Shown here in pieces: positions 573 through 63,754 of a stretch of 64,000 nucleotides of DNA (position 1 is the stretch's first letter; every line of letters begins with the position of its first letter). This stretch comes from Pseudisothecium myosuroides. Taxonomy: Eukaryota; Streptophyta; Bryopsida; Hypnales; Lembophyllaceae. The stretch spans positions 496,001-560,000 of the forward strand of contig OX637297.1 in the NCBI GenBank assembly GCA_951799445.1. The letters are read 5' to 3'. Both the position numbers and the translations under genes were made by a program. The notes beneath the pieces were generated by a model. It did no database searches. It saw only the letters and a list, made by a program, of their open reading frames with translations, and was not told the origin of the DNA.

Positions 573-577
573 GTGAT

Positions 578-18520: not shown

Positions 18521-18988
18521 TGTGGGAGTATGTAAATTCAAAGTGCATAAAAATAGATTAGAATAGAATTATAATAGAGCCAAAAAATTTTGAATTTTAA
18601 TAAGACATAGAGAATTGGATCCAATTACGGATAACTTTAGAATAGTCAGTTTCTATGTTGCTAGAACCGTTACGACTGGTTTATCACCAACAGTAAGACG
18701 GATCCGAAATCCAGAATTTTCCGGATGAATGGAACCTATGGTCTAGAATTCTGGCCTAGGAAACTAGGGTACCGTTACGGGAACGGTCTCCTATCCATTC
18801 TCCACCGAGAACGGTCGGCTGCTTGTTGGGTACTTAAGTCCACCGCCACTCCATTCTTCTTCCTTTTTCGCAGCACTCTGCGCGCATGTAATGGAGAGAA
18901 AGAGTGGTGAGTTAGGCATCGTGCCAGGGAGAGAAAGGTGAGGTCGATGCTGATTGCACCGGATTAGCATTCTCCGTGTTGGTGAACC

Positions 18989-20926
18989 ATGGCGGAAAGT
19001 AGCGATCCGAAAACCCATAAATATACGGTCACGGCCCAAATAGTTTGTTCGGCTATTTCTGAGGACTCGACCATGCGGAGGCAGTTAGAGGAGGATCTAA
19101 TGCGTATGGGATGCGTCGGATTGTTACATAGGTTGTGGAATGTCAAGGACTAGGAGATGACTGAGGAGCTCATCTCAGGGGTCCCAAATCAGTATGAGTT
19201 GACGGTTAGAGGTCGACCCATAGCTTGGACAGAGGACGTCTGGGCGGAATTATATGAGTTCAAGAAGTACGGATCCAGATTAGCCTCCTGGACGGATAAG
19301 TTCTCGAGCGGAAAGTTCCAAAGTCCGATCAATTCGAAGGACAAGTACGCCACTAGTGAATGTAAGAGCAATAGGCATAGACGGGTGCTGGAATTTCCGA
19401 TTCCGCTTTTGTATCCGGAAAAGTCTACCCGTGTTACGGTCACGGTGGCTAACATCATCTTTGGAGCTATGGAAGATAGGTTTGTGCATTGGGGTAGGGT
19501 TATTGCGGGTGTAGTCACGAAATTGGTGGACCATGTGTCGAAGAGCAAGTACAATCCTCTCAGCCCGTACTTGTTCCACCTCTATTACCAAAATGAGGTT
19601 CTGAATAGCCATGAGGTGATAGCGTACGAAACTAGAATCCAAATCCTAAAGTATGGCTTTATGGATGAAGCTAAGCGGGAGTAGCAGGAGTCGGAGTCGG
19701 AAGAAGAGCAGGAAGAACTAGTCGATAAATGGGATAAACGGAGGAAGTTGACCGGTCTGTCCTCAAGAGGAAAGTTGACGGAACCGGAAATTGGAGAACC
19801 CAGCTAGATTTTGGTGAAGGAAGAACCTTCGACTTTCTTTGATGCTAGAATCGAATGGGTACGGCAAGCTCGGTTGCTACACGACAACATAGCGGATTCC
19901 GTAATCAAAATTGGTGATGAATTGAAGGTGAAGTCGGAGAATATTTTGAAGGAAATCAGGCAATGACTGAGTCCAGATGTGCCGCACAAGAAGGATGAGT
20001 GGATCCGGAACTTGGAGAACGAGTGGGATGACTTTCAATCCCCGACGCTTTTTGCGAAAGGAGATGCAGCAGTAGCAAGACAGAAGGAGACAGAAGCTCT
20101 CCAGGTCGTCCGGAATTTGACAACGTTGGTTTTTCAGCCGACGGATCTCGTGGTCAGATCCAAACTCTTCAACGACTAGCTGATAAGTGAAGGGCACCTA
20201 TCCGGATTGAAAGTAGTGACAATCTTAGTCAACTTTCAAGCTCGGATGGATGCGATGTTGAAGGAAATGGGTAAGCTGTTGGGACACCTTGAGACGGGTA
20301 AGGTCATGGATTTCACAATGTTTCCGGATGTTCCCGGCACCGAATTCCTGAATACTCTGATCAAGCAAGGTCTGGGGTCCATTCTGCAAATACCAGGTTA
20401 TCGGCAGGTCCATCCACGAGCCAAGCGCGGATACGACGGACAAGTTTAAAGGATGTATGCAAACTTGAGAGGGAGACAAGTGTGAAGCCGGTTCCGGTGC
20501 CACGTGAAGTTTCCGTCTCACCAACAATTTCGTCAATCTGGATTACTGGGACAGCATCATTCATGCTACCCGGATGGGAAGTTCGCAATGATCTCGTTGA
20601 GCAAATGGGGCCTTGTCAAATCTGGCCCGGACCCATCCGGAAAAGTTCCCTCACATGTAGCAACTTTCGCCTAAACGAGACAGCGCGACAATAGATCTTA
20701 GAGAGACGTTGCCAAAGAAGGAGCTTAAGGTTGAGATGATTGATAAATCAGAGGAGGAAGATTTCAAATCTGGATCCGAGACAGAATCGGACGAGGATGA
20801 CTCGCCCCCACCAATCAAGTGTAAGATTCAAAATCGGGCTACAGTTAAGTTGACTCAGTGAAGTCCGCGAGCAAGCCACTTGCAGGTCCCGGTAGCAGTT
20901 CAAAGAAGCCGCGGAAGGGGAAGTAG
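18989..20926 (+). pseudogene. Unit B protein gene, copy 1 (broken)
   Basis: The ATG at 18989 aligns with the ATG of copies 3 and 4 (MAES/MAESS start), and the TAG at 20924-20926 aligns with their ends. In-frame stops occur near 19151, at 19682-19684, near 19804 and elsewhere, and there is at least one frameshift before 20480. Conserved pieces are 'LISGVPNQYELTVRG', 'GKFQSPINSKDKYA', 'RVLEFPIPLLYPEKSTRVTV', 'IIFGAMED' and 'LSPYLFHLYYQNEVL'. Function is unknown. Upstream there is a TATA-like 'gtacttaag' at about 18828-18836, in the same place as in copy 3. Confidence 0.8.
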
Positions 20927-21789
20927 TTAGTTAGGATTTTTGAATTTTAGTTCCGAAACGGGTTTTCTGTGTGTGGGCCCTAGTTCTGGATTTTTAGGGA
21001 CAACTGGCATTTGACTCTCCGGATATCACGGAAGGTCATTGTGTGGTCACCCCGGTTTTGGGGTGGCTTTTCAGCTTTTTGGCTTTTTGTTTTAAGTTTT
21101 AAAGGGAGGGCAGTCTGTTGTCCTCTCATTCCATCCAAGCCCATTTCTATACATTTATTTATGTTCATCCCTTTCTTTAATCTAAGATACTGAGTGAACA
21201 TTCTGATTTTGACTATGTGTACGATTTTGTTGGTTTGTTTATGAGTGTGTTAAGGTGCAAGAGGGGATGTGGGCGCTAGATTACCCACCCTTGGTAATAA
21301 AGCGAACACCGACCAGGTTCTATGCTTTTATCCACATTTTTTAATATATGGGGGTGATGTGAGCGCGGTCCACTGTGCCTTCCAAGCAATGGATCTTTTT
21401 TGCTAACGTTTCCTAAGTGTCGTGGATGGCAGCGAATAATTAGTAATGCATGTAGTAACTCACAAGTTAACTGCGATGTTTAGAGTGATGGTGAAATCCG
21501 AACTCCCTAACTATCTATCCTATGTCGAGGGTCGACTGAGTAGTCGGCGTCATTTATAACGTCCCTAACTACATAAAAAGGGGAACCCCTATGTTCCTTC
21601 CATGAACCCCTAAGACTATCTTGGGTTTCTAAGACTTCACCTAGGAGTTCTACTTTTAAAAACTACCCCTAAAGTTCCAACTTCGGAATGTAACTCTAGA
21701 TTTTACTTCTTTAACTTGATTCTTAAATATTAACTACCAACTTGTGCTCGATGTTTTGACTTTTGACTCTAGGTTTCTATTCCTAAATT

Positions 21790-22073
21790 AACTCTAAGAT
21801 TTACCCTTGAATTTTAACTCTATGTTTTAACCTTTAACTCTAAGTTTTTACTCCTAATTTAACTCTAAGATTTACCCTTGAATTTTAACTCTATGTTTTA
21901 ACTTTTAACTCTAAGTTTTTACTCCTAAATTAACTCTAAGATTTACCCTTGAATTTTAACTCTATGTTTTAACTTTTAACTCTAAGTTTTTACTCCTAAA
22001 TTAACTCTAAGATTTACCCTTGAATTTTAACTCTATGTTTTAACTTTTAACTCTAAGTTTTTACTTCTAGAAT
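21790..22073. repeat. 71-bp tandem repeat in the left LTR (4 units)
   Basis: The phrase 'aactctaagatttaccc' starts at 21790, 21861, 21932 and 22003, a constant 71-bp period. The surrounding 21600-22750 is a degenerate sea of 'ttttaactcta' phrases. This suggests that the array grew from an older short-period repeat. Confidence 0.9.
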
Positions 22074-24529
22074 TAATTCTAAATTTTAACCTCTAGGTTT
22101 GACTCTATGTTTTCACTTTGACTCTAGATCTTTTCTACTTCCAACAACTAACTCTAACTTTAACTTCTACCTCTTAACTTTTAGCTTCTACTTTTAGCCT
22201 TTCACTATAACTTTTTACTCCCCAATTGACTCTAAAGTTTAACCTTTAAATTTAATCTTAACTTTTGACTTTTGACTTTTGACTTTCTACTTCCAACTTT
22301 AATCCTATCGTTTTAATCCTAGTTTAACTCTAAGTGTTATCCTCCTAAATTTAACTCCAACTTTTTAACTCTAGGGCTTAACTTCTAAACTTACTTCCAC
22401 AGTTTACTCTGAGTTTTGACTTCTAATTTTAACTCTATTTCTAACTAAAAATCTACTCGTAATTTCTACCCCCTAAATTTAGTCCAAGGTTTTACTTTTT
22501 AATTTCTACTTCCCACTCGGAATTTTTTACTCCTAATTAACCCTAACTTCCTTTTCTAAGCTACCCTAAGGTTTCACTGGAAATTTTAATCCCCTAAGTT
22601 AAACTTCCAAATTAATTCTACTTTTTAACTTCCCAAAGTTAACTCTAGATTTTGACCTTAGAATTTTAACTTTAAGAAATAAAATGTAAATTGATTCTAA
22701 TTCTAACCGCTAATTAATCCCTAATTTTAATCCTAAATTCTCTTTCTAATTTAAACCCCTAAGGTCCGTCCATGATTCTTTTTGGATGATTTCTACTCAA
22801 AATTCCTCCGTCCTACCTCCTACCGCTTAACTTAGCCTAACGCGGTCAGTTTACGGTCAAATCTTAATTATAAGATGTTTTCGGAAACCCCTATCACTAA
22901 TCTATAGACTTTTGAATCTAAACTTCTAATTTGCACTAATCACGGCTCGCTAATCACACTTTTAGGGCTGATTAAGGAAATCAATGCTAATTAGGGAAAA
23001 TACCAAGGGTTAATTTCAAAAACTCACCTCTTCACTACCGGTTTCGGAAATCACTTCGTCCACGTCCACGTAGACATCCTCATGCTCCATAGCAATCCTT
23101 TGTTTTGTTTGATTTTTCCCAAGCTCACCGCTTAATTTGAGAAAATATTACACCCTTGCAATCTAACTTCCTTCTTTCCCTTCCTCCTTCTTTTTCTTTC
23201 TTCCTCCCTTCTTCTACACTAGTACTATTCCACCTAAGCTTTTATGAGTCTTACACTATGGTCTCCAATTTCAAGGAGGTTTTTAAGATGCCAACTATCC
23301 TCTTACACAATTTTGCCTTTGTGTCATCCTAATCCTCCTCCCAACGGTCACCACGAATTCTCAAGATTTCCTTTTCTAATCCTACCTAAGCCTAAGCCTA
23401 GGTCACTATTTATCGTCTCTCTCACCTCTCCCCTATTTCATTCGATTGTTCTCTATCCTTCCTCCATTGTGTGTAAGAGTGTTTTGTAGTTGTTGGTGAG
23501 GGTGAGACTTCCTTGTGTGCAGGTACGGTGGTGCTCCGCTCTTTTCTCCCTTCTCCCTTTTTGATTTTAGACCCTAATCCCTACTTAGCAATAGGTCAGC
23601 CCCCCATTTTCCTTTGTTTTGTTTATCTAGTGTGAGAGAAACCAAAAATCAAGAAAAAAGAGAGTTCAAAAATGGGGACCGAATTGGGGCCCCAACTGCC
23701 TGCCGAATCAAGCCTGGCCTCTCGGCTGGCTGGCTAGCTGCTGGGGGGTCGGGTTCAAAAATAAATAAATTATTTATTTATTTGTTTTCTTTTGATGTTT
23801 GGATGATGTGGCCTGGTCTGGTTCGGTTCTCGACTTGATCTGGTCTGTTCTGGCTTCCGACTTGATCTGGTCTGTTTGGTTCTCGACTGATCTGGTCTGT
23901 TTGGTTCTCGACTTGATCTGGTCTGTTTGGTTCTCGACTTGATCTGGTCTGTTTTGGCTCTGGACCTTGACTACTAAGGGAAAACTGGATTTTTGGGCAA
24001 ACTGGATTTTTGGTGAACTAAGGGAAAGAAAACTTGGAGAAAATAAAACTTGGGGAAAATAGGACTTGAGGGAAATAGAACTTGGGGAAAATAAGACTTG
24101 GGGAAAATAAACTTGGGGAAAATAGGACTTGAGGGAAATAGAACTTGGGGAAAATAAGACTTGGGAAAAATAGAACTTGGGGAACAACTTAGTCACACTA
24201 AAACTTGGGGAGCAACTTAGACACACTAAACTTGGGGAACACTCAGACTCACTAAACACTTGGGAAACAACTAAACTAAAGAAAACGTTGGGATTAACTA
24301 AACTTCACTAAATGCAAAGGAACCTACATATCTTGGAAGCTAAACTCTGGAGGTTTCCACAAAGGTCTTGGAAACTAGACTTTGGAACTAAACACGAGGG
24401 AGGTGCAAAGCTTCGCCGTTAGATTGGTTTTAACACCAACTTTAGGACTTCTTGGCACCTCGGGGGTTCAAAGCTCCGCCGTCTACACTTTTAACACACG
24501 CTTTAGGACTTCAACTTTGTCACTAGTTT

Positions 24530-24765
24530 AAAGCTTCGCCGTCCCGGAGGGGGGTCCACTCAACAAGGAGAAAATTAGAAGAAGGTTTGGAATAACTTAG
24601 AAAACATGCGCAAAGGAGGTTCAAAGCTTCGCCGTCCCGGAGGGGGGTCCACTCAACAAGGAGAAGATTAGAAGAGGGTTTGGGATAACTTTAGAAAACA
24701 TGCACAAAGGAGGTTCAAAGCTTCGCCGTCCCGGAGGGGGGTCCACTCAACAAGGAGAAGGTTAG
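24530..24765. repeat. ~94-bp tandem repeat in the left LTR (3 units)
   Basis: 'gcttcgccgtcccggagggg' starts at 24533, 24626 and 24720. The units differ by single bases. A counterpart exists at about 35925-36160 in the right LTR. Confidence 0.9.
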
Positions 24766-26485
24766 AAGAAGGTGTAAGAAAAAAAACAAAGAGAAAACAC
24801 ACAAGTTAGACCACGTGGCAACACAAAGCTCACACGCTAAAGGCCCCCCAAAGCGGCATCGCCAAGGTACGGTGGGGGGTGACTTTAGGATTAGTGCAAG
24901 ATACAAAAAGACTCTTAAACTTCACAAGTTAGACCACAACACGTATAAGAGGGAGAGAGAGGCTCTCCACTTACAACAAGGTATCAAAAACTTCACAAAA
25001 GAGTACACAAAGCAAGGTAGAAGGACCCCCAAGGACCTTCAAAGCTTGAAAATAAGCAACAATGGAGCCAAAAGTGCTCCGAAAACACCGTAGAGGTTTT
25101 TGGCTTTAAACGCCAAAATATCCAAAATAACTTGGACCCACGGACTCAAAACAAGAATTGGGGGTGTTCTAGAGAGAGAAATGGGGCCCTTATATAGGTT
25201 TCCAAGGGCGCACCCCTCCCTCTAGAGTTCTAAGGTAACCTTATCAACGGGGATTTTCATCCTCATCCTCAAAGATTTTCATCCTACATCCTAAATTTCT
25301 ACTTCTACCATTTATGCTGAACCAACATCCTAACTTTTGGAGATTAGCTCCAATCGCCGAACGGATTGCGCCGTTGGATCCAGAATGCCGTGTTTAGTCT
25401 TAAATCCTTTAACCCCCCGTACCGAGGCCAAAAACCCATCGTAGGCTAATTTAGTTTAAAAACCAAATCGTGGTAAAATCCTAGATCTTGGGGGTCTCCT
25501 ATTTTGAGAAATGTGAATAGCCTAGGGTCTCCGGTAGGTGCGAGAGAGTCGGGAAGGACTTTTGGTTGACTTCGTTTTGCCATCGTATGGTCCTGGAATG
25601 CCGGTCAACGTGGCGGGGACCCCGCCACGTGGTTAATTTCCGAGGAATCTTGCCGGTTCGGGTACTTGCCGCTATCGGAATGTCGTGAAACTTCACGGAG
25701 CGCATTATTAACATAAAACAAGCTAGTCTAATTTTTAGTGAGATTTTATTGTAACCTGGGTAATTTCCATGAAATTCCCGTTGGAGGTTAGGAGGGTTGA
25801 CCACCCGGAAAAAGGTTCTTCTGCAAGTCGGAAGATGCCGGGATTTTTCACGTGACCTCTCAGGGAGTCGCATGAAAGACGTGCGGGTGTGTTTCCGTAC
25901 CTGGCACGATTGGTCAATGGAGATTTAAACTGGACATCTCCTTGAAGTAGTGACGGTGCGGGAATCTTCTGCAGGTGGAGGAATCTTGGCCAACCGATTT
26001 CGCCGTTGGACTCCTGGCATGGGATTCACCTTAGAACACCATCCTTGGGCTTTAGATTCCTCCACGGCCCGGTCTTGCGTGAGTGGCTCCTGCATGCTAA
26101 CAATCGGGATTTTGGGAATTCGTTGATCTAATGGGGAATTCTAAATCTAACTCTAGGACCCAACCTAGTGGCCTCGCTGTGGATCCCTTGGACCGACCTA
26201 GCCATGAATCGCCACATTCATGGTGGGATTTAGCCCTTTTGGGGCTGTGTGACTCGAATCTTCCAAATCTAACCTTTTTGTTATTTCTACACTCTTTTTA
26301 GGCAAGGTTTGGGGGATTCTAAGTAAAAAACACAAATCTAGACCAAATACTATAATGGGTATGACACAACCCTATTTCGGTTCTACACTCTTTTTATGGA
26401 TTTTTCTATACTTTTATCAACTTTAAATTGCAAATTTCCAAAAAAATAATTCTACGAGTCCCAAGTGACAAATTGGGAGCTCACA

Positions 26486-27165
26486 TATGGCGTCCATCTG
26501 TGGTATGATTTGCAAAATCATGACGACCCAGCATCTCTTGCTACCGCTATTTGGGTACACGGTGAATTTCGAGATCAAACCTAATGACGGACTAGAAACC
26601 AAGATGTGACTCTATCTAAAGGGATGTTATTCCTATCAAGAGACTCTTGATGGATTAACTGACAGGGGGGGAAGAGAGCAGAGGGAGTAGTCCTCCTTCC
26701 AAGTGGAAGGGCTAGGGGTGGTCAAAGGAAGTTTGACCCCCGTAGACTTATCACTCATATATTTGTTCATTTTCTATTTATTCTAGTTATTAATTTTCTT
26801 GTTGTTTCCCCATCCGCCTCGAACGGAGTCGACTTGGATCTATAGATAAAAAATATAAAAATCCCGCCATCCGCCCTCAACGGAGTGAGTTTGGAACTAA
26901 GGGGGAGATAGAAGTAGAGAGAGAAGCCCCTGTCCTCCTTTGATACAGCAAATCGGGACACTATAGATAAAAAATATTTCAAACCCGCCTTCCTCCCTCA
27001 ACGGAGTGAGTTCGGACTAATGAGATGAAATAAAAGAAAATAGAAAAACAGAAAGGAAAAGCATAAATGGAAAAGGCAAGTGGTCTGAGACCTCAATGCT
27101 CGGGAGCTTCACTTGGAAAAGTGTCTTCCGTCGTGGAGGCCGCAGCATTTCTTGCCATCTTGTCA
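26486..27165. other. Element A interior, non-coding end next to the left LTR
   Basis: No open frame was recognised. Three diverged copies of a phrase around 'cctcaacggagtgag' occur at about 26818, 26876 and 26996, with 'ctatagataaaaaatat' at about 26840 and 26962. I could not find a clear polypurine tract next to the LTR boundary at 26486 on the coding (minus) strand. The plus strand begins 'tatggcgtccatctgtgg', which superficially resembles a primer-binding site, but the coding evidence favours the other end. Confidence 0.4.
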
Positions 27166-28098
27166 CTAGCTCAGATAGGAGGCGCCCCGGTGCCTGGCTC
27201 GAGGTTCAAACCTGCGTCGCCAAGGGAAAATTGAGGTATCTTTACCGCGATGAGGCTGTGGTCTACAGGCTGCCGGCTGCCGCGGCGGAAGACGTCCGTC
27301 GGTTTGCTTTGGTGGTATATAAGCCGGTGCCGGTGCCGGACCGGTCCCTCCCCTGTTGCACGGTGGCAAGGATTTTTTTTTTTTTTTTTTTGAATAAGTA
27401 TATACATGGGCGGGAGGGTTTATATCTTGCCCAGAATTAACGCTATGTACAAAGAGGCTGGACCAACTCATATTCCAAAGAACACGCAGTTGGTCCAGGA
27501 CCTCAAAGATGTAGCGAGGATACTGGCCTTGACTGATAGGCTGGAGCTCTGGTCCGCGGACTGCCAGCAAGTGGCCGCCGGCCACGGAGTTTCTTGTGAT
27601 GCTGATGGCGGGGCGCTCACTCGAAAATTGGCCCGTCACCATAAAGTGGTGGCCCAACAAGATGTCGTGATCCTCCACAAGAATCATAAGTGAGCGGATC
27701 CCGTTTGGCCTAGGTTGCCTAATGTCCCTGGCTAGAGGGTTTCTTGCCAGTGGAATCTCGCAACCCGGCTGCTCCTCCTCGTCACGTAGTCGCCGTCGTG
27801 AGTTAGGCAACCTGTCCGGAATTGCAAGTCCGTCTCCAGCAGGGTTAGCCGTTGGATCGAGTGCGAGTTCTTTCGGGAGTTGGAGTGGAAGCTCCTCAGT
27901 CGGTGTGGATGGTTCGTCTGTTGATGTAGATAAGGTGGTTGGTAATATGAGGACGCCTCTCGCCACCTCGTCCACCGAGGTTGGGGTCAGTGACGACGAC
28001 CTGGCCCCCGTGGGGGTGGTAGGTGAAGATGAAGAAGAGGGCGAGGATGGCGGAGCCGCGGGTGAGGTCCCCAGGGACCCGTTGTCTCTGACCGACAT
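27166..28098 (-). CDS. Hypothetical Pro/Ser-rich open frame in element A
   Basis: 310 codons from ATG at 28098. The N-terminal ~90 residues are Ser/Thr/Pro-rich. The middle holds a less biased part (about residues 125-225, for example 'DHDILLGHHFMVTGQF'). Codons 238-243 are a lysine run created by a 19-base homopolymer (T on the plus strand, 27373-27391), so the frame across it may be fortuitous. It lies downstream of the protease frame on the same strand. I do not recognise it. It could be an extra element gene or a remnant. Confidence 0.3.
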   Translation of the reverse strand: MSVRDNGSLGTSPAAPPSSPSSSSSPTTPTGARSSSLTPTSVDEVARGVLILPTTLSTSTDEPSTPTEELPLQLPKELALDPTANPAGDGLAIPDRLPNSRRRLRDEEEQPGCEIPLARNPLARDIRQPRPNGIRSLMILVEDHDILLGHHFMVTGQFSSERPAISITRNSVAGGHLLAVRGPELQPISQGQYPRYIFEVLDQLRVLWNMSWSSLFVHSVNSGQDINPPAHVYTYSKKKKKKSLPPCNRGGTGPAPAPAYIPPKQTDGRLPPRQPAACRPQPHRGKDTSIFPWRRRFEPRARHRGASYLS

Positions 28099-28729
28099 GA
28101 CATCTACACTACCCTATCCCCTTGTCCTCCCCAAATGGAGTTGGTTTGGACCTGCAGTGTGAGGGTTTGATGTAGCTATCTGCCAAAGCAGATTTTGAAA
28201 AAGAAGAAGTCTTGAAGAGACTGAACAGCGAGGAACGATGGTAAACAAGGAAAGCAGGTAGAGATCAAGCAAGGAGAAGATAATCAAGACAAGGCAGGGG
28301 GGAGATAGAAGGGCGCCGGCGCCTGAAGACTGTGAAATCACTCCGCTGTTCGAGAGAATGCTAGACTAGGACGTAGATGATGCTTTCCCAGATCTCTCCA
28401 TAGTTAACAACGGGAATCTGCACAGGCCAAGGATGCTGAAGCACACGGAGGAAGAAATTAAAACCAAAGTGAGAGATGAGGAAGTGGGAGAAGCTGCGTT
28501 TCTCAACACAGAGAATTTTGATCTGAAGTGCGACTGGTAAGACGGTTGGCGGGTTGAACCATCCATGATCCATGTGTTACTCAAGCGGTACCTGCACATG
28601 ACGCTGCCAGTAGCTTAAAAGTACGAGGGCTGCCCCCCCCATTCTTATACCCTAACGTGGGGGACATGATGTAAGGTGTCAGTCCTAAACTAGCCGTTCT
28701 TTAAGCCTTCTGCATTATTACAACGGTCG
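28099..28729. other. Element A interior, no gene recognised
   Basis: Only short frames are present on both strands (the longest is about 75 codons at 28341-28114, minus), without motifs. Confidence 0.35.
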
Positions 28730-29016
28730 AGCGCCCATGCCCCTTCTTAAACTAGCCGCCTCGTTAGCATATCAGCAGGTTCGACGGTCTAGCAAGGGAC
28801 GAACGCCAAGGCCCCTTCTTAAACTAGCCGCCTCGTTAGCACATCGGCAGGTTCGACGGTCTAGCAAGGGACGAGCGCCAAGGCCCCTTCTTAAACTAGC
28901 CGCCTCGTTAGCACATCGGCAGGTTCGACGGTCTAGCAAGGGACGAGCGCCAATGCCCCTTCTTAAACTAGCCGCCTCGTTAGCATATCAGCAGGTTCGA
29001 CGGTCTAGCAAGGGAC
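28730..29016. repeat. 72-bp tandem repeat (4 units) in element A
   Basis: 'ctagcaagggac' recurs at 28789, 28861, 28933 and 29005, an exact 72-bp period. Because 72 is a multiple of three, the plus strand stays open and reads a 24-residue repeat (PLLKLAASLAYQQVRRSSKG and variants). That strand is antisense to the protease gene, so translation is doubtful. Confidence 0.92.
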
Positions 29017-29143
29017 AAGTGTCAACTTTCAGCCGCCCTTTCATCCGACTATGTGGCTTCTATTATGACGGTCTGACAAGTACCTAATCTAAGTGAAAGG
29101 TCATCTGTCTTCCACATGACGCTAACTCTGACAGGTTGGTGAT

Positions 29144-29219
29144 GTGTTGGGCTCAGGTCTGAGCAGTTCCCAACACACTCATGTGTTGGGCTCAAGTGTG
29201 AGCAGTTCCCAACACACTC
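29144..29219. repeat. Duplicated ~38-bp palindromic unit
   Basis: 'gtgttgggctca' ... 'tgagcagttcccaacac' occurs twice head to tail. Within each unit GTGTTGGG pairs with CCCAACAC, so each can form a hairpin. A 'ggcttttggccacgc' duplication follows at 29283-29315. Confidence 0.85.
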
Positions 29220-32595: not shown

Positions 32596-32630
32596 TTAGT
32601 GAACATGCATTTGCAACCTAATGTTTTCAG

Positions 32631-32648
32631 CTCCCGGCAAACGCACCA
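32631..32648 (-). promoter_or_regulatory. Probable primer-binding site of element A
   Basis: On the minus strand, four bases inside the LTR end, the sequence reads TGGTGCGTTTGCCGGGAG. It starts with TGG, which pairs with the CCA end of a tRNA, and resembles the 'TGGCGCCGTTGCCGGGGA' class of plant Ty3 elements. The position supports right-to-left transcription. I did not identify the tRNA. Confidence 0.6.
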
Positions 32649-32652
32649 AAAC

Positions 32653-43801: not shown

Positions 43802-43806
43802 CTCAG

Positions 43807-51590: not shown

Positions 51591-54500
51591 CTCCTTGTCG
51601 TCCATTTTTTCTCCTTCTCTTGCAGGTCCAATTGCAAGAGTTGTTCTCCCCAATTGCTAGGGTTCTACTATCCAGTCTTTTGCCAGATCTCCATGTAGGA
51701 GCGAGCGTACTTTGGAGCTCTGGCTATGGCCGACACACTTGTCATCGCCCGTCCTCTCCCGGCACTGAACTTGGAAGGGCTCGAGTCTCGTAATCTTCGT
51801 TCGCATGTCCCAATTTGGTAGAATCCACCGATTTGTAGATTATTAAGCTATCTCCGACGTTCATTGTGGTGCAAAGTCGATTGGCATTCATTTTCTTGCG
51901 GGCTGGCTATGCCCACCCAGGTTTATTTAACCTCTGGGAGAGACGACTTGAGGTTCCGTAGGTTTTATCAAGGTTCCGGCGAATACAACGCAATTAAGAC
52001 ACAGAGCTTGTAGTCCAGATCCTGGTTGTATAAAATTCTCAATTCTGCAGATTTTTTCTGGTTGCAATCTTTATCATTTTGGTCCGCAGTCGACTCACAT
52101 TTCTTCTTCAGAGCTTGCTGTGACCATCCTGGATTTAATCAACTTCCAGGAGTGCCTATGTGAGGTTCCAAGGGTTTGTTCAAGTCGAAGTGCGTAGAAC
52201 GAACTTCATACGCTGAGCTTGTAGTTCCAAGGGTTTGGATACTGTGGATTCTTTTTGTTTTGGTGAAGGGATTTTGACATTCCTGTTGACATGGATGTGA
52301 CCCGCCGAGGAGGTCAAGCAGAAGCAGTTCCGGATTTGCAACGTCTTCACGACAGATTAAGTACAGATTACTTGAAAATTGAGAGTTTACTACAATAGGG
52401 TTTGAGTTTTTGGTTTGTGACTCACACTTAACATTGGCTTTATCACGCCGCATTAGAATGCATCCCAAATTTTTGCATCAAGTTATGCTCTTTTGTATCT
52501 GCATGAGATGAAGCCTATGCATCGTGAACTTCAGATTGGAATTGCATGCTTGTCCTTTCTTACATAATTAATCTTGGTTGGAAATGCAACATACATGATT
52601 AATCTTAATTAGAAATGCTGCAAAATTGCTTTCTTCATTTTTTAGGGAGGTTGTTTGCCTACACTGAGATGTACAAGTGGCTGCACCAAAGCTTCGGCTC
52701 TGCCTCCATTCTTATGAAGTGAGTAGCAATTCCCCTGTGTTTTTGTATTAGTGAGATTGTGGCAGCTTGTCATGCATAGCTAGCGACTTGCAATTTATTA
52801 AATAATTTTCGTTGGTTTCATGACATGTGCCTGTTATTCTTTTTCTGAATCGAATTGTAGTGAAGGAAAAGAGGCTTTTCAAATTCCCTTCCGTATTATG
52901 TTAATATCATTCGGAATGACTTTGTACATGTACCTGTTTATGTTTGAATCTACTATTTGGATTGACTTTTGAGAAACCGGAAGTTGTGAATGGGCATCAC
53001 AACATCTATAATTATAGAGAAGGAACGATACCATACATGAGTGAATAGTTTTTGAGCATTTGTGAGTAACGTAATTTAGGTTTTAAAGAAACCATTGGCC
53101 TTCGAATTGATCATAAGTGAACTTATAGTGTAGGTGTAGGTGAACTTTCAAAGTGTAGAACACATTTGCCAACTTCAAGTCCACCGATGAATGTCGAAAA
53201 ACCAGTATCTTGTTGGCCAGAGTGTTCTGTTCCTTACTCGATGTCATAGATCACAAAAATGATTTTAATTGACCATGAATTTTGGTGGAAGTGGACATCC
53301 GGAATAGGGAGGTTCCACATTGGAAGAGTTTTGGGAGGGATGGAGAAACAACGTGGCTTCCGTTACTCCAGATTCTGTTATCTATCCAGAATTTGCAAAC
53401 GTTTCGGAAGGGTTGTTGCACAGACCGGCTATTACAAAGTAACAAATTATTTTACTATAAGAGCCTTCGGCATCGCAGATGACATGTACGCAATCTCATT
53501 GTGATTGATCTGCTGGTTACCAGGAGCATCTCATATATTTTGAGTTAGATGAAATAAAGTTATTCTATGCTTTTGTAATGCCTATTTGTTTGACAAAGCA
53601 AAGAGCCTTCAGCCAATATTTGATAGATGTTAAGCTCATAATTTTTTCCATTCAACTCTACAAAATGAATATTGAAGTAGCATCACATCGCATCATCGGA
53701 GTTTGATTAGTGTTACATTAATAGTGAAGACACTAAATTATTTGACTCAATCTTACATCGACTTTAAATGGATGTCATTGTGTTGTCAAATTTAGAGGAG
53801 GTTATTGATGATCTAGAAGGTAAGTTTTAAGAGGAGTAGGACTCTACCATGAACCCGAGAACATAGTAAATGTTTATTTTTGCAGATATGCTAGAGGCTT
53901 GTTATTAGCATATATGGTCCTTGTTCCAGTTTGTGAGATTGGCAGCAGTGGTGGTCCTTCATTACAAGTAAGGAAGCACATAGTTCAAATGTTCTTGTCA
54001 TTGCAATTGCAGAGTCCTCTAGTTCTAGAGTGATTCTCTACCATAGAGTTTTAGAGTTTGAGGTGGCAGACAAGTTTGTCTGCATCAGGGTTTGGAACTT
54101 GGATTTGGTGTTCAGAGATTTTATTTAGTTTCTATACTTACTCTTTTTTTTGCTATGGTTAGAAGAGACTACATTAGTAGTCGACATTGCAGTTGTTCGT
54201 GAGTAAGTGTCAAAAAACCCTATTGGAATCGATATAATGGTTCCTTGAAGAATTGTGATGGTGTGATCATATCAGCCAGTATTACACTTAACTGCAATTA
54301 ATACCAAAGATATACTGGAGAGCAGTCTCCGGTCTACCCCATCCAGTCTGCTTAGTTATTGGACCAATTTTTGGTAAGTTTAATGCTAATTCAATCACCA
54401 TCTTCTAGTAAGTATATTGCTGAACAGCATTTACTAAGTTTTTGATTTTGTATTAGCCACTTCAGGCTTCAGTAAGTATCTGTCTATTCACCTTCATTCT

Positions 54501-56400
54501 TGATACTGCTGCACATCTAACTAATAGCTTCACAAAAAAACTAAGATATTTAATTTAATTAAGCAATGGCGTTACATAAATGCATGGATGACACATAATT
54601 GAATGAATGGTGTTCTCTGTGTCACAATAAAAAATGAGGACGCTTCCAGTTTCAGATGCTCATTAATTATTTGTGCAAAATTTTGAACCAAATTAATTGT
54701 TTTGTGATGGCAGGTTGGAATCGCCAGCAAGTTATTATTCTCTGAACTGCTAAATGTGCAGGTCTTGTGCCTGTGCAGTTGATGACAGTTGGAACAAAGC
54801 TGTGGAATTAGTGGATTGAGATGATGATGCACGATGGCACCTTAATGTGTGAGTTCAGCTTCATGTGTATTCTATGAATGATAGTCCCAAGTTCAAAAGT
54901 GTAACTGAATGTTCATGGTGAGCTAATTTTTTTGTTAAAGTGCCGAGCATGATTTAGTAATACTTGTCAAGGATTTGACATAATCTTCTTCATGGGGATG
55001 TAGGCCATGGTCAATCCTGAGTGTAGATCAAGCCCCACTATACATGCCATTTAGTCTGACATTTTGGTAATAGGAGCATCTTATTGCTTTTACAAATGTT
55101 TTGGGAAAGTGCAATTTGTAGACTAATGCAGATCTTGCTTATACTAAAGTGGGATGTGGTGATGAGCAGCGGGCCTCAAGTGTAGGGCTTTGCTCTAGGA
55201 GAGAACAAGAAGGTTTCTTGGAACTACTTGTACGCACATATGTGTATGATGCTACACTTCAGTTCAGTGTTTCAATGTCCGGCATGCATCATCCACTCGA
55301 GCTTTGATTCACGGACATTACAATTGTGAGTTTATAGGGCTTTAGTAGTGACATTCCGTGTAGAAAGCAACTCTGGTTTGTTTGTATGGTTTTCACTTAC
55401 AAATGGTCTTACTGGATTTCTGTAAAGGACTGACACATACAAAGCTGTACATGTTATTTTTCTTCTGCAGGAGGGGCTGAGTTATTTTCATTTTGAATGT
55501 TCATATTCTCTTCAACTGTAAGTGTTCTAGTATGAAGGAAGGCAGCTGTTAGGCATGAATGATGGAAGCGTTCTAGTAGGTTTCAAAATCACGAACTTCT
55601 AAATTTTGTTCATTAATTCTTTGTACAGGAAAAGCACGGTTGACTACGTCTGGCGAATGTAGCACACAACTCTTTCTTTTCATGAAGTAGCTCAGAAGAT
55701 TGTGGGACACAGCTGTTAGGGTTGTCATACGACCTTCCATTTTATGGATAGCTCAAGCATTCCATTCCTTTTCAATTTCTATTCAAAACTACTTAGAAGA
55801 AGAGTCCTTAAACTAAGTTCTAGAAGTTCGAGACTTTGCACAATGATACAGAGAAATGCAAGATGGTCTTCATTTTATGGTGCTTTCATGTATACAATAT
55901 ATGGTGAAGGACTTTTTAGACCACAGGTTTAAGGTCACTTAGTCGGAGGTATGTCAGTCACTTGAAGTGTGCATGTAACAAGAAATTGGATTTAATGGAA
56001 TGATTTCTTTTACCAGAATTTTTATTGCTTTGCATTAATTAAGTATATATACTCTTGCCAAATGTGGCTCTGTGTGAGTGCAGATTGAGGCTTGAACAAG
56101 GCAACGGATTCTACAATAGCTGCTGCAGCAAGAGAGTTCAGTGTGTCGAGGTGCCCAGGCCATGCACGTTTCCACGCCCTGTGCAAAGGCCATTCATTCA
56201 TGACAATGGCAATGGACGTACGTGCTGAAAACAAAGAGTGTTTGTCAATGCCTACAGGGACGTACACATACCAACGTCTGCATGTCTGTCTATGGTGCCT
56301 TGTGGAAACATCCTTGCATTTTATTTTAATGTGCAATCACGTGAACTCCACGTCAATTGGAAGGTTGTAGAAACAATTTTGAAAATGTGTTCCAATTGTG
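51591..56400 (+). other. Gene-like, less AT-rich segment inside the CACTA element
   Basis: Base composition rises from AT-rich to near-genic at about 51590. Two ATG frames occur: 51727 (MADTLVIARPLPALNLEGLE, 33 codons) and 52289 (MDVTRRGGQAEAVPDLQRLH, about 36 codons). A possible exon at about 52649-52718, with AG before and GT after, reads 'RLFAYTEMYKWLHQSFGSAS'. The phrase is weakly reminiscent of the N-terminal part of eukaryotic DNA primase small subunit. I could not follow that protein further. Later sequence shows scattered splice-like signals but no continuous frame. It may be host gene sequence captured by the CACTA element, or a non-coding transcript. Confidence 0.3.
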
Positions 56401-56697
56401 TTGTGTTTCGTTGTTGTTGTAGCCAATGTCATGAAAGTGCCTCGTGCATGTTACATGATAGGGTTGTACCCACATTTTAATGACATTTGATGCACTTTTT
56501 GAAAATAGAAAGATGTCTTGCAACATGTTGTCGTTGTGAGTAAAGTCATTTGCGATGTTATGGGAATGTGGATCCAAACAAGTTTTTCTTGATGCGGTGT
56601 CATTGTAGACGCCATAGGTGGGGGTGCGTCTAAAATGATGATGCACCATGTATTTGATGCAATACCACATTTGATGGTAAGAAAGCACTTCACATGC

Positions 56698-59600
56698 TGT
56701 GGGAGCATGGAAACTTAGAATAAAGGAAGATAGCATAGAAATAGGTTAGGAGTTAGTTAAAAATTTCAAAACTTTGGTAAGAAGTAAGAAATTAGATCCG
56801 GATACAGATAAATTCCGGATAGTTAGAATCCGAGATTCTAGATCCTTTAAACCGGGTTCTTTCGAGACCAGGAACGGATCTTAAATCCGAGTTAGGTCGG
56901 ATCGGAACGAGCTACGAAATAGGTATCCAACCTACGCCGCTAGGGAACCGTTACGGGAACGGACCTCTTTCCGTTCGCCAAGGGGAACGGTTGGCAGCTC
57001 GACTAGTACTTAAACCGTCACTAGACCTAATCTTCCTCATTCTCCACTTTGCTGATTGTCTTACGCACTTAGCTGAGAGAAAGAGTGGTGAGTTAGAGAT
57101 CGCGACAGGGAGAGAAGGGTGAGGTCGGTGCCGATTGCACCGGATTTAGTGGTCGGTGTCGGTGAACTATGGCGGAGTCTAGTAATCCGGTAGCGCGTCG
57201 GCCTTCAATCACAACTCGGATAGTTAGACCGGCTATTCCCTCCGACCCAACTCACCGGAAGGAGTTAGAGACAGATCTAATCCGGATGGGATGCGTAGGT
57301 TTGATTCACCGGCCATGGAATGTTAAGGACCCAGAGATGCTGGAGCAGCTGATCTCAAGGGTCCCAAATCAGTTTGAGTTGACTGTGAGAGGCCAATCCG
57401 GAGCATGGATGGCGGATGTATGGGCTGACGTATATGGGTTCGAGAAGAACGGGTCCGGATTAGGTTCTCGGGTAGAGAAGTACGGGATTGGGAAGTTCCG
57501 TAATCCGGTTACCACTAAGGACGGATACCCCGTGAGTGACTGTAAGGACGCTAGGCAGAAACGGGTGTTGGAATTTTTGATTCCGATCCTGTATAAGGAA
57601 AAGCCCACCCGAGTTACGGTTACGGTGGCCAACACTATCTTTGGGGCTTTAGAAGATAAGGTAGTTTACTGGGGGAAAGTCCTAGCCGGTATAGTGAAGA
57701 AACTGGTATCACACGTAGGGAAGGGGAAGCCGAGTCTTCTCAGTCCGTACCTGTTTCACCTGTACCACCACCAGGAAGTGCTGACTAGTGAAGAGGTGGT
57801 GATTTACAACATCGGATTGGAAATAGTGAAGTATGGTCTCACGCACAAAATTCCACCGGATACTCCAATCGAGGGAGAAGAGGAAGAAGAAGAAGAAGAA
57901 GACGAAGACGAGGAAGAGGAACCGCAGCAGCAGGACCTGGTCGACAAACGGGAGAAGAGAAGGAAGTCGACCAATCCGAACTCGAGGGTGGAACAGTCGA
58001 CCCCGGAAAAAGGAGAGTCAAGTCAGCCCTTGGGATCGGAAATGCAGTCGGACTTCTTCGACGTCGGAACGCAGTGGATGGAGGAGGCTAAGCACATGCA
58101 CTTTGGCATGTCGGATATGATCCTGGGGATTGCTGCGGAGCTGAAGGTGGAGCCGAAAGATATCATAAAGGAGATCCGGCGACTACCAAACCCGGATCTG
58201 CTTCGTGAAAAGGACGAGCGGATCAAGAGCTTGGAGAAGGAAAGGGATGACCTGTTAGGTCGGGTGAATTGGGCGGAGATGGATGCCACAGTTGCATGGC
58301 AGAAGGAGACGGAAGCTCTCCAACTCATCCACAATTTGACCGCGTTGGTGGAGCAGCCCTCGGAAGCTGTGATCAAATCCCGATTCTTCAGCAATCAGCT
58401 AAGTGGCACAGGCCACTTATCCGGGTCCAAGGTGGTAACCATCTTGGTGGACTTCTAGGCCCGGATGGAAGGAATTTTGAAGGAGATGGCGCAACTGTTG
58501 GGGCACCTCGACCCAAACAAGCCCTTGGACTTCACCCACTTTCCGGAGCTGCCCAACGTTGACTTGTTGAAGACGCCCCAGAAGCCGGGGCCAGGGATCA
58601 GTCTACAGCCATCTCCAAGACCTACTCCAAGTCAGACACGGATCCAGACGAAGACCACTAAGTTCGGCCAGACGAGGAGTATCCAGTCGATTCCGGTAGT
58701 AGCAGGAAGTACCGTTCCGACATCCGGAACATCCGTCCGGAGCGATTTAATCCACCGGATGGGGGCCTTGTCAAACCCGGCTCGGACCAATCCGGTCGAC
58801 TTTCCACATATGCAGAAGGCATCGCCCAAGAAGAATACAACACCGATTCAGCTGGACGATTCATCAGAGAGAGAGACCAGAGTGGAGATGATCCAGGAGT
58901 CCAAAAAGGGGGAATTCACTTCCGGGGATGAGACGGCCTCGGATGACGACCCGCCGCCGATCCAGCGGAAGATTCCGACCCGGGCTGCAACGAAGTCCAC
59001 TCCACCGAAAACGAGCAGGAAACCACCTGCAGGGCCGAGTAGCAGCTCGAAGAAATCAAAGCGGGGAAAGTAGTTAGTTAGTATGTTTGCAGTATTAGGA
59101 TTTTGAATCTGGAGCGGATTTTTCATGCGTGGGGCCCGGTTCCGGATTCTTAGGAGTAGTTGACTTTGAACTTTCCGGATATTACGGTTGGTTGCTGATT
59201 GGTCACCTGGATTTTCAGGTGTTCTTTTTTTGGCTTTTTGTTTGGGCTTTTTAAGTGGAGGGCAGCTTGTTGCCCTTTCATTCCAGCCTTGCCCATTTTG
59301 TGTGCATTAGTTTATGTTCATATTCTCTTTTCTCTAATCTGAGCCACTAAGTGCACATTCGGATTTTTGGCTATGTGTGCGTTTTCTTGAGTTGTTTATG
59401 GAATGTCAAAAGTGTGAGAGAAGGCGGGTAAGGGGGAATCCGGGTTGAGAATTAGTTGGACCTGATTTGAGTGAGTAAGTTTGTGAGGAAACTTTACTAG
59501 ACTTGTGAGTAAGGACTTGCGCGTGGTACCTTTAAATTGCCGTAACGGTGATCCGGTTCTAAGGAGTGGTGCGGATGCGAGTCCGGAATCCAGGGAGGGT

Positions 59601-60211
59601 TCCGAGTGGAGATAAGCGACCGCCAACGGAAAATCCCCACTCACCAGAAGGTCTGCCAACCATAGGATCAGTCTGGTAGATAGACGCACGAATCTCTTTC
59701 AGTCCCAGCTGCCTTGATCTGTCGTTGTAGTAGAAGTGGAAGGATGCAATTCTGAGTGACCTGTTTTCCGGGCAAGCTACCCGGGGAATTGTGAGGATTA
59801 TTACTTTCTCTATTCTACAATAAGAACTCGGTTAGGATTGTTTTGTGTGGAGTTTTGTGCAGAGAAATAGATGTCTATGAGTGGTGCGTTCCTACCCCTC
59901 TAAAAGATCAAAGGCGGACACCCTGAGGGTAAAATAGGGGAATAGAAAACCAGTCGAAGTTAAGAAGTAAGACTCGGAATCCGGATCAAACCGGAAACCG
60001 GAAAGGGATAGATCCGGATTGGGATCCGGAAGACCATTGTGTCAGAAATAGGAAAAGAAAGAGGTGTTGCTTGGGGTTTTGTTGTTTTGATTACGACCCG
60101 AATACTCCTTAGCTTGCTGAAACATACTAGAATCTCCTGGGACGATATTTCGTGTTATCTTATCATCTTTTTGGTGTTAAGGATACTTACGCCTAGATTG
60201 CGCGTACGACA
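56698..60211 (+). mobile_element. Unit B copy 3 (3,514 bp, near-intact gene)
   Basis: It starts TGTGGGAGCATG and ends GCGCGTACGACA. Flanking 5-mers are CATGC (56693-56697) and CATAC (60212-60216), one mismatch. The order of features equals that of copies 1 and 4: 'tacttaa' TATA-like site at about 57007-57013, gene 57169-59073, tail with 'acccctctaaaagatcaaag' and the U5-like 'cctgggacgatatttcgtg'. Confidence 0.85.
57169..59073 (+). pseudogene. Unit B protein gene, copy 3 (one nonsense codon)
   Basis: ATG at 57169, TAG at 59071-59073, 634 residues if the single in-frame TAG at 58456-58458 is ignored. At that codon copies 1 and 4 read glutamine ('NFQARM', 'DFQARM'), so one C-to-T change explains the break. 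The N-terminal conserved domain reads 'LISRVPNQFELTVRG', 'GKFRNPVTTKDGYP', 'VLEFLIPILYKEKPTRVTV', 'TIFGALED' and 'LSPYLFHLYHHQEVL'. An acidic stretch follows at about residues 236-257, then a basic patch (KREKRRK), a coiled-coil-like segment at about residues 340-375, and a Ser/Thr/Pro-rich tail ending in a lysine-rich end. The function is unknown and the same as copy 2 by homology. Confidence 0.8.
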
Positions 60212-60843: not shown

Positions 60844-61350
60844 TAAGTATCGGATTACCGTTCCGGTAATTTAAAGGCACTATGCACTAGTCCTCATTCA
60901 CAAGTCCAAAGCTTCCTCACAAATGTACCCTACCAATCAAACCCAGTTGTCTAAGGTCCGGATTCCTCCTCACCCGTTCCCTCTTACACTTTAACACTCT
61001 TATAAACAAACTAACAAAATCGTGCACATAGCCGGAATTAGAATGTCCACTCAGTATCTCAGATTAAAGAAAGGAAATGAAACAATCATTAAAAATGTGC
61101 TAGGATGGAATGAGAAGGCAACAGATCTGCCCTCCCTTTAAAACAAAAAACAAAAAACAAAAAAGCCAAAAAGCCACCCCAAAACCAGGGTGACCGCACA
61201 ATGACCTCCGAGATATCCGGAGAGTCAAAGGCCAGTTGTCCCTAGAAATCTAGAACCAGGGCCCACACACAAAAAACCCGTTTCGGAATTAAAATTCAAA
61301 AATCCTAACTAACTGAAAACATCCTAACTAACTGAAAACATCCTAACTAA

Positions 61351-63285
61351 TTACTTCTCCTTCCGCGGCTTCTTTGAACTGCTACCCGGACCTATAGGTG
61401 GCTTGCCAGCGGATTTCACCGGAGTCAACTTAACGCGGCCCGGGTTTGAATCTTACGCGTGATTAGTGGGGGCGAGTCATCATCATCTGATTCCGTCCCA
61501 GATCCGGATTTGAACTTTTCCTTCTCGGATTCATCGATCATCTCAATCTCAGGCTCCTTCTCTGGCAACGTCACCTCAAGGTCTATCGTCGCGCAGTCTT
61601 GTTTAGGCAAAGGCTGCTGCATGTGAGGGAAACCTTCCGGATGGATTCGGGCCGGATTCGACAAGGCCCCCATCCGATTGATGAGATCGCTGCGGACTTC
61701 CCGTTCGGGTAGCATGAATGACGCTGTCCTAGTCATCCGGGTTGACGGAACCGTTGGTGGGACGAAAAATTCCCGCTGCATCAGAATCGATTTTACACTT
61801 GTTTTCCTCTCAAGTTTGAGTAAATCCTTTGCACTCGTCCATGGTATCTGTGCTTGACTTGAGGACAAACCTGCAGGTGGTTGCAGAATGGACCCCAGCC
61901 CCTACTTGATCGGAGTCTTCAAGAATTTAGAGCCAAAGACTTCCGGAAAAATTAAGAAGTCCATGACCTTATCCGGATCAAGGTGTCCCAACAGCTTGCC
62001 CATTTCCTTCAACACCGCATCCATCCGGGCTTGAAAGTCGACTAGGATTGTCACTACTTTCGATCCAAATAGGTGCCTTTCACTTATCAGCCGGTCATTG
62101 AAGAGTTTGGATCTAACCACAAGACCTGCCAGCTGCAAAACCAATGTCGTCAAATTTCGGACGACCTGGAAAGCTTCCATCTCCTACTGTCTTGCTACTG
62201 CCGCATCTCCTTTTGCCCAATGCACCCGGGATTGGAGGTCATTCCACTCCTTTTCTAAGTTTCGGATCCGCTCATCCTTCTCGTGTAGCACATAAGGGCC
62301 CGGTCGTCGCCTGATTTCCTCCAAAATATTCTTCGGCTTCACCTTCAACTCTTCACCGATTTTGATTACAAAATCTGCCATGTTATTGTGCAGTAACCAA
62401 ATCTGCCGCACCCATTGGGTTTCGGCATTAAAGAACTCCAAAGTTTCTTCTTTTGCCGGAGTCTGGCTGGGTTCTCTAATTTTCGGTTCCGTCAGCTTTC
62501 TTTTTGCGGACGGATTGGTCGACTTCCTCCGTTTATCTCGATTATTGACCAGTCCCTCTTGTTGTTCTTCCGACTCCAACTCCTGCTGCTCCCGCTCAAC
62601 CTCCTCCGTAAGGCCATACTTTAGGATTTGGGCTTCGATTTCGTACGCTACCACCTCTTGGCTATTCAGAACCTCCTTTTGGTGATAGAAGTGGAACAAG
62701 TATGGGCTGAGAGGACTGTCTGTACTTATTTCTTGACACGTGTTCCATCAATTTTGTTACCACACCCATGATAACCCTTCCCCAAAGTACCAACCTATCC
62801 TCCATAGCTCCAAAGATGGTGTTAGCCATCGTGACCGTAACCCCGGTAGGCTTTTCCGGATACAGAAGCGGAATCAAAAATTCTAGCACCCGTCTATGCC
62901 TATTATTCTTACATTTACTAATGGTTTACCCGTCCTTTGAATTGGCTGGACTCCAAAATTTTTTGCTCGAGTAGTTATCCGTCCGGGAGGCTAATCCGGA
63001 TCTGGACTTCTTGAACTCATACACTTCCGCCCAAACATCCTCGGTCCAAGCTATGGGTTGACCCCTAACCGTCAACTCATACTGATTTGGGACCCCTGAG
63101 ATGAGCTCCTCAATCATCTCCTAGTCCTTGACGTTCCACAGCCTCCGTAACAATCCGGCACATCTCATACGCACTAGATCCTCCTCTAACTGCTTTCGTA
63201 TGGTCAGGTTGGCAGGAATAGCCGGACAAACTATTCGGGCCGTGACCGTATATCTATAGGTTTTTGGATCACTACTTTCCGCCAT
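61351..63285 (-). pseudogene. Unit B protein gene, copy 4 (broken)
   Basis: ATG at 63285, aligned stop TAA at 61353-61351. Conserved pieces are found in several frames: 'ISGVPNQYELTVRG', 'MLEFLIPLLYPEKPTGVTV', 'NTIFGAMEDRLV', an acidic linker near 62580, 'VHWAKGDAAVARQ', 'VDFQARMDAVLKEMG' and 'GSGTESDDDDSPPLI'. Multiple stops and frameshifts are present, so it is not functional. An 18-bp phrase 'ctaactaactgaaaacat' is tandemly repeated just after it (about 61304-61350). Confidence 0.8.
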
Positions 63286-63754
63286 GGTTTACCGACACCA
63301 AGAACACTAATCCGGTGCAATCGACACCGACCTCACCTTTCTCTTCCTAGCACGATCCCTATTTCACCACTCTTTCTCTCAACTATACGCACGCAGAGTC
63401 TTGCATAAAAAGAAGAAGAATGGAGCAATAGTGGACTTAAATACCCGATGAGTAGCCGATCGTTCCCAATGGAGAACGGGTAGGAGACTATTCCCGTAAC
63501 GGTACTTTAATTTCCTAGACTGGAACTCTAGGCTATAGGTTCCATCCATCTGGAAAAATTCCGGATTCCGGATCCGTTTTACTTCTGGTGATAAACCAGT
63601 CGTAACAATTCTAGTAATACAAAAACTGACTATTCTCAAGTTGTCCGTAATTAGATCCAATTCTCTATGTCTTACCAAAATTCAAATTTTTTTGACTCTA
63701 TTCTAATCCTATTCTAATCTATTTCTATACATTTTGAATTTACGTACTCCCACA

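Follow-up and report, generated by a model that had tools for sequence, protein, structure and literature searches.

The stretch of DNA considered here, referred to as the window, comprises 64,000 nucleotides of the genome of the moss Pseudisothecium myosuroides (C11:496001-560000 of the 388-Mb assembly used for genome-wide searches) and contains four units of about 3.5 kb, designated A, B, C and D, each bounded by a 5-bp duplication. These units are, with very little room for doubt, long terminal repeats (LTRs) that belong to two related families of Ty3/gypsy retrotransposons and are mostly solo; in both families the LTR itself encodes a protein. The explanation that best accounts for the data overall, and which has about an even chance of being correct, is that the coding LTRs provide the element with its own sequence-specific system of activation or anti-silencing, similar to that of VANC, which would survive in solo LTRs. 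The units and their parts are located in the window as follows.

40317 to 43801, plus strand: family A LTR, solo, 3485 bp, TGTCGCA...TGCGACA; it has 97-99% full-length matches elsewhere in the genome, where paired copies flank gag-pol.
40312 to 40316, plus strand: left target-site duplication of A, CTCAG, read directly in the sequence.
43802 to 43806, plus strand: right target-site duplication of A, CTCAG, read directly in the sequence.
56698 to 60211, plus strand: family B LTR, solo, 3514 bp, duplication CATGC/CATAC; it has other copies in the genome (full-length ones 89-95%), and B LTRs elsewhere adjoin a putative primer-binding site (PBS) or polypurine tract (PPT).
18521 to 21267, plus strand: left part of C, an older B-type LTR with a decayed gene.
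37884 to 38659, plus strand: right part of C, duplication TAAAT/TAAAT.
60900 to 63754, minus strand: 5-prime part of D, an older B-type LTR; inner edge approximate.
39306 to 39936, minus strand: 3-prime part of D, inner edge approximate, duplication GTAGT/GTAGC.

Four units with 5-bp duplications had been described in the original prediction, and all are present where it had placed them. It had also treated them as one family with the same ends. The shared layout of the units stands, but they make up two families, one consisting of A alone and the other of the related units B, C and D. Unit A starts with TGTCGCAAGG and finishes with TGCGACA; B, C and D start with TGTGGGAG and finish with GACA. 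By blastn, B and C are ~73% identical and C and D ~82% identical over their aligning parts, and the A LTR has no similarity to the LTRs of B, C or D. The further claim that all four carry the same single gene is correct in that a homologous frame is present in each, but this frame is open only in A, has one stop in B and is reduced to fragments of fewer than 200 amino acids in C and D. Since the ends, the duplications and the length recur in dozens of copies in the genome, the units are not chance arrangements.

The identity of the A units as LTRs was established from the 40 best-scoring full-length copies (97-100% identity, window copy included), the flanks of which were all inspected. Thirteen of these copies are the LTRs of six multi-LTR elements. 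Five LTR pairs, mostly with a spacing of ~9.38 kb, enclose a putative PBS, gag-pol and a putative PPT, and perfect 5-bp duplications (TTGGT, GCCGC, GGTAC, CTTTG and CATAT) lie outside all five. The two LTRs of a pair differ by 5-19 mismatches over 3486 bp, which corresponds to 99.4-99.9% identity. The gene lies within both LTRs of the paired elements and not between them. The first of the two possibilities raised originally, that the units are solo LTRs of a retrotransposon with a protein inside its LTR, is thereby shown. The remaining multi-LTR element is an array of three identical A LTRs with GTCTG on both outer sides. This array (C5:4258765-4280984) has the order LTR-internal-LTR-internal-LTR and sits inside a B-type LTR (B matches of 93-94%) around which no flanking duplication was seen; it probably arose from unequal recombination or is an assembly duplication. 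The other 27 copies are solo, 23 with a perfect duplication and two with one mismatch (L029 and L040), and no flanking duplication was found for the last two (L019 and L041).

A 25-nt pattern for the A end, allowing up to 3 mismatches, detected 694 LTR starts genome-wide, compared to none for a reversed-pattern control, and the ends are thus conserved across the genome. Nineteen of 100 listed A ends have a same-strand partner 7-15 kb away, a fraction that is a lower bound given that the listed ends are perfect matches on contigs C1-C5 only. That the window holds several solo copies and no full-length element therefore agrees with the pattern in the genome. The statement that no copy is full-length is accurate for the 64-kb window and does not extend to the genome, where paired A and B elements exist. 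In two pairs of A LTR starts (C2:273681/286515 and 399998/412833) the spacing is almost the same, 12.83 kb, rather than the usual ~9.38 kb.

The search for family B gave 49 stretches from 40 scored candidates, and flanks were read for 20 of them. Fourteen of these copies are solo and have a duplication that is perfect or has a single mismatch (copies 7 and 8, whose last two bases are TA, being counted after a 2-nt shift of the right end), and one more is solo with two mismatches; copies 10 and 11 share identical flanks and may be one duplicated locus. One of the 20 copies is followed by a putative PBS and four are preceded by a purine-rich PPT-like tract. Units that always ran on into element sequence would have spoken against the original prediction; 25 of the 40 A copies and 14 of the 20 B copies end instead at a duplication with at most one mismatch. 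A PBS-bearing LTR at C11:12327912 and a PPT-bearing LTR at C11:12353687 form a B pair, with AATTC outside both. Two 3.5-kb stretches within the 22 kb between them encode gag and pro-pol and carry nested A-type LTR sequence. In tblastn comparisons with A gag, pro and pol as queries, the internal proteins of B share 63% of amino acids with A over 298 residues of gag and 64 and 71% in pro-pol; A and B pol are ~71-72% identical in amino acids, and pol of the B pair has four in-frame stops. B-type LTR pieces also occur head-to-tail, with no internal region between them, at C1:31616200-31623209.

The second possibility raised in the original prediction was that the units are not LTRs but independent gene units mobilised by an integrase. 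Most of the inspected copies are single and have duplications, as such units would. The same units nevertheless flank gag-pol with a putative PBS and PPT in both families (five pairs and one triple for A, one pair for B), which makes a distinct mobile unit superfluous; the paired elements refute it for A and B, and its probability is negligible.

The internal region of A is ~5.89 kb long in most elements. In copy L010 it has Pfam matches to Retrotrans_gag, Ty3_capsid, zf-CCHC, RVT_1, RT_RNaseH, Integrase_H2C2 and rve, with reverse transcriptase (RT), RNase H and integrase in the Ty3/gypsy order. A TGGCGCCGCTGCCGGGGATT-like site after the 5-prime LTR is the putative PBS, and a GAGGAAGGGGTAA tract before the 3-prime LTR is the putative PPT. 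No chromodomain was among the Pfam matches at E ≤ 0.01 for the L010 pol frame, the one copy scanned, and the one RNase H that hmmscan reported on L010 was that linked to RT, with no additional copy (aRH). An additional RNase H is a criterion for the Tat lineage and a preference for NCGN insertion sites is a feature of the Phygy lineage, according to the accessible part of PMC6317226; no NCGN preference was seen for A, whose duplications are varied (e.g., CTCAG, GATAG and TTGGT). Four of seven A internal regions, those in which the junction was readable in the gag frame, share an in-frame stop that separates gag from protease and may be regulated.

The features of the LTR-encoded protein are located as follows; the cluster in the third line resembles a nuclear localization signal (NLS).

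40831 to 42600, plus strand: A LTR protein, 589 amino acids, with a frame that 29 of the 40 top-scoring copies keep open, with homologues and a ratio of nonsynonymous to synonymous polymorphism (pN/pS) of 0.26-0.41.
40882 to 41523, plus strand: N-terminal domain of the A protein, predicted to be mostly helical, mean predicted local distance difference test score 93.
41608 to 41619, plus strand: basic cluster KRQK, resembling an NLS and preceded by an acidic stretch.
41731 to 42231, plus strand: long predicted helices or coiled coil, residues 301-467, with weak matches of coiled-coil type in Pfam and the PDB.
57169 to 59073, plus strand: B LTR protein frame, 634 codons, with one in-frame stop at 58456-58458.

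The pN/pS values of the A frame, determined from 35 copies, are 0.39, 0.41 and 0.26 by allele class, and they indicate that the frame is under purifying selection. The A and B proteins are homologous although the DNA of their LTRs has no blastn similarity. Nonsynonymous divergence (dN) between A and B is 0.815 for the LTR protein (0.525 for its N-terminal domain) versus 0.208 for pol, and the LTR protein thus evolves 2.5-4 times faster than pol. Searches of the protein against sequence databases and, as had been proposed as a check, profile databases yielded 51 homologues and then 67 by profile, none of which bears a name. They gave no convincing Pfam match for the A protein (four matches at E ≤ 1), and the N-terminal domain had no Pfam match at E ≤ 10 and no match in PDB searches. 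The remainder of the protein is predicted to form a long coiled coil and disordered tails, and the KRQK-type cluster presumably belongs to a class of NLS motifs.

Two TATA-like sites in the A LTR bear on how the frame might be transcribed.

40549 to 40554, plus strand: TATATA at LTR position 233 of A, putative upstream promoter P1.
42767 to 42772, plus strand: TATATA at LTR position 2451 of A, with an inverted repeat after it; the genomic RNA would start from this putative promoter, P2.

The site upstream of the frame in B and C is CTTAAA or CTTAAG, close to LTR position 312. Leaders were measured from an assumed start 30 nt past the upstream site (for D, from position 340), and neither the 252-nt leader of A nor the 130-nt leader of B contains an ATG, compared to 4.5 and 2.6 expected, respectively. 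All four units have a TATA-like site after the frame, which is TATATA in A, TTTTTAAG in B and TTTAAA in C and D, and in all four this site is followed by an inverted repeat, identified by folding for A and B and by eye for C and D. In this layout, the LTR frame would be transcribed from a promoter upstream of it, and the genomic RNA would start at another promoter past the frame. Alternatively, the LTR frame could be the first cistron of a genomic RNA that starts at the upstream TATA, in which case U3 would be only ~260 bp and the protein would be a leader product. The TATATA at LTR position 233 of A and the ATG-free stretch from there to the frame fit this alternative. The downstream TATA-like site and inverted repeat, although their promoter role is putative, are what is expected for U3-R and occur in all four units, and a leader cistron would place gag-pol far downstream within one mRNA. 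On balance the leader cistron appears doubtful, if still a serious candidate. The inverted repeat past the downstream TATA (42767-42800 of the window in A) is common to A and to B, C and D, the LTRs of which are otherwise unalignable.

Both families are dense in the word TCCGG/CCGGA, which occurs at 9-14 per kb in coding and noncoding DNA of A and B and at 0.4-1.5 per kb in other sampled sequence. Its specificity was assessed in the window plus 62 kb of sequence from elsewhere. The counts of TCCGG plus CCGGA in A, B, C, D and the A internal region are 49, 47, 32, 36 and 72, compared to means of 11.2, 10.4, 7.3, 7.1 and 15.5 and maxima of 24, 19, 18, 14 and 26 in 100 dinucleotide shuffles. Positions 1-18520 and 43802-56697 of the window together have 0.41 per kb, the element nested in C has 1.14 per kb, and 81 pieces (62 kb) around the fetched copies, with similarity to A-D and the internal region masked, have 1.45 per kb. 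One of the stretches adjoining an A copy, L052:1-5485, has 2.9 TCCGG per kb, which is over background, and is perhaps a decayed relative. CCGG is the most over-represented 4-mer in A, in B (tied with TCCG), in D and in the internal region, and the second in C.

The word is also more frequent in coding DNA than an analytic expectation from the protein sequence and the codon usage of the gene itself would allow. There are 70 words in gag-pol where 29.8 are expected (P 2e-10), 33 in A pol versus 12.5, 33 in B pol versus 13.9, and 25 in the B LTR frame versus 10.3 (P 8e-5); four other frames of the window have no such excess. Among 29 control words of the same composition, only ACCGG, which is the other flank of the same core, has a similar ratio in gag-pol (2.7). 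Of the 27 cores in A pol and 25 in B pol, 10 are in common, and in the LTR frame 3 of 20 aligned A cores are also in B. Judging from these alignments, the density of the word is maintained and most of its positions have turned over between the families. The non-palindromic forms are balanced in the LTRs (16:19 in A, 10:9 in B). Enrichment depends on an A or T adjoining CCGG, and the two families differ in the flank, with ACCGGA:TCCGGA at 52:24 in the A LTR plus internal region versus 11:14 in B (p 0.035); for A versus the pooled B, C and D, which share ancestry, the comparison is with 19:37 (p 1e-4).

The density of TCCGG could be a response to the methylation context of the host at CCG sites, or to a host factor, and owe nothing to the protein of the element. 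In plants, CCG sites behave in a distinct way with respect to methylation, the core of the word is CCGG, and A and its internal region are also enriched in words that contain TCCG alone, for example TCCGT. This explanation is unlikely, as the enrichment is flank-specific, A and B prefer different flanks, and within the sampled sequence the enrichment is confined to these families (1.14 per kb in the nested element and 0.41-1.45 in other sequence).

In the proposed mechanism, the LTR protein, with its globular N-terminal domain, often an NLS-like cluster and a long coiled coil, would oligomerise in the nucleus and bind dispersed TCCGG sites. The bound protein would shield its own family from silencing or activate its own LTRs, as VANC does for VANDAL. 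A sequence-specific factor is proposed because a fast-evolving element-encoded protein with a confidently predicted domain, a dense family word on both strands and the difference in flanks fit the logic of VANC and VANDAL. That the protein acts through TCCGG is somewhat less than an even bet. More tentative again is the evolutionary scenario, in which an LTR retrotransposon took a gene for a sequence-specific activator or anti-silencing factor into its LTRs and spread the recognition word along the entire element, including the genes for its enzymes, such that protein and word co-evolve and each solo LTR can remain both helper gene and target.

It is conceivable instead, though improbable, that the protein is an accessory factor of the particle or the RNA, with a role in assembly, packaging or transport and no link to TCCGG, and that the word is abundant for another reason. 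The long coiled coil and the disordered tails would suit such a factor, as would the lack of any DNA-binding domain in Pfam searches and the uneven orientation of the word in internal pieces, and plant Ty3/gypsy elements often carry additional frames whose function is unknown (PMC6317226, as far as its accessible text goes). However, in both families the word persists beyond what codon usage gives even as its positions turn over, and it occurs in both orientations in the LTRs; a maintained word in both orientations fits recognition of double-stranded DNA better than packaging of RNA.

Several results weigh against the sequence-specific activator or anti-silencing model. For the protein, Pfam searches found no known DNA-binding domain, the A N-terminal domain is not clearly basic (34 K+R versus 31 D+E), and an NLS-like cluster between residues 220 and 400 is present in only 24 of 41 proteins of at least 400 amino acids. 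The fraction of intact A frames, 29 of 40, is biased upwards since these copies are the best-scoring of many, and the difference in pN/pS between singleton and shared variants in the 35 A copies is not significant (p 0.19). For transcription, none of the TATA-like words scanned for occurs upstream in D, and the leaders of the decayed copies C and D have three ATGs and one, respectively. For the word, the excess in the A LTR frame is modest (25 versus 13.7 expected from codon usage, P 0.004). Counts are small in the two LTR frames, and there the control words AGGCC and GGCCA, and in B also GCGCA, have similar ratios. Retention at individual sites is weak: between A and B pol, CCGG is retained at 10 of 33 sites versus 82 of 406 for other CG 4-mers, and between the decayed C and D it is retained less than the others (5 of 18 versus 0.35). 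Orientation is uneven in the internal pieces (12:26 and 7:13; 45:67 overall, p 0.047), and TCCGG is dispersed through coding and noncoding DNA rather than arranged in tandem as are the motifs of VANDAL.

Solo LTRs are usually regarded as scars without a protein, but many of those described here can still be genes. Each solo LTR that recombination leaves behind can go on supplying the protein, since the gene is part of the LTR. The genome has 694 LTR starts, and 29 of the 40 copies that scored best have an open frame, so the loss of gag-pol need not end the conflict with the host. If the protein does read TCCGG, these LTR retrotransposons would carry their own sequence-specific means of anti-silencing or activation, with a word that is dense even in coding DNA, and would provide a natural experiment in the co-evolution of a protein and its word.

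Other sequences in the window lie in or next to these units. Unit C is interrupted by a single nested LTR element with its own GGGGA duplication, which occupies positions 21268-37878 and has LTRs of ~5.2 kb with 71-bp tandem repeats and a spacing of 11.39 kb. Its minus-strand frames at 27166-28113, 29756-31120 and 31385-32200 have no Pfam match. Remnants resembling a long interspersed nuclear element (LINE) at 14278-15012 and 38629-39033 have weak DUF4283 and endonuclease matches, both under the Pfam cut-offs.

A protein frame within an LTR is itself known from an animal retrovirus, as the LTR of mouse mammary tumour virus encodes Sag, which has another function. We know of no element-wide word in that virus, and what is new in the present case is the saturation of A and B with TCCGG/CCGGA. 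In the parts of the literature searched, which included few subscription journals, neither a plant LTR that encodes a conserved protein nor an element-wide word in an LTR retrotransposon was found, and coding LTRs were not met in the accessible parts of a study of moss elements (PMC7466625) or of a meeting report (PMC12859917). Anti-silencing by extra frames of LTR elements was raised as an open question in 2026 (PMC12844716, accessible part). The consulted portion of PMC6317226 sorts the additional frames of plant Ty3/gypsy elements according to whether they lie 5-prime or 3-prime of the polyprotein region.

Among such elements, ORF0 of rice Retrosat2/RIRE is similar in belonging to Ty3/gypsy elements of >12 kb with LTRs of >3 kb and in being more divergent than gag-pol; in the available text of PMC3485330, it lies upstream of gag-pol, is not described inside the LTR and was not found outside grasses. 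The non-chromovirus Ty3/gypsy lineages Athila, Tat, Phygy and Selgy resemble A in the RT-RNase H-integrase order, a gag with CCHC knuckles, the putative PBS and PPT and 5-bp duplications, and in Phygy and Selgy the internal region is almost all polyprotein (PMC6317226, same portion), as it is in A. Compared with these lineages, A adds a protein inside both LTRs.

The closest parallel in logic is the VANC/VANDAL system of Arabidopsis, as described in the accessible part of PMC5735166. VANDAL is a DNA transposon with its words in noncoding tandem repeats, whereas A and B are LTR elements. VANC carries DUF1985 and DUF287; these domains were not among the four matches of the A protein at E ≤ 1 or found for its N-terminal domain at E ≤ 10, nor were they among the matches listed for relatives of the LTR protein (best 25 of 66 and 25 of 78 families). 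In both systems, a fast-evolving element-encoded protein accompanies a more conserved enzyme, and VANDAL elements, like A and B, have a dense short family-specific word that differs somewhat between related families.

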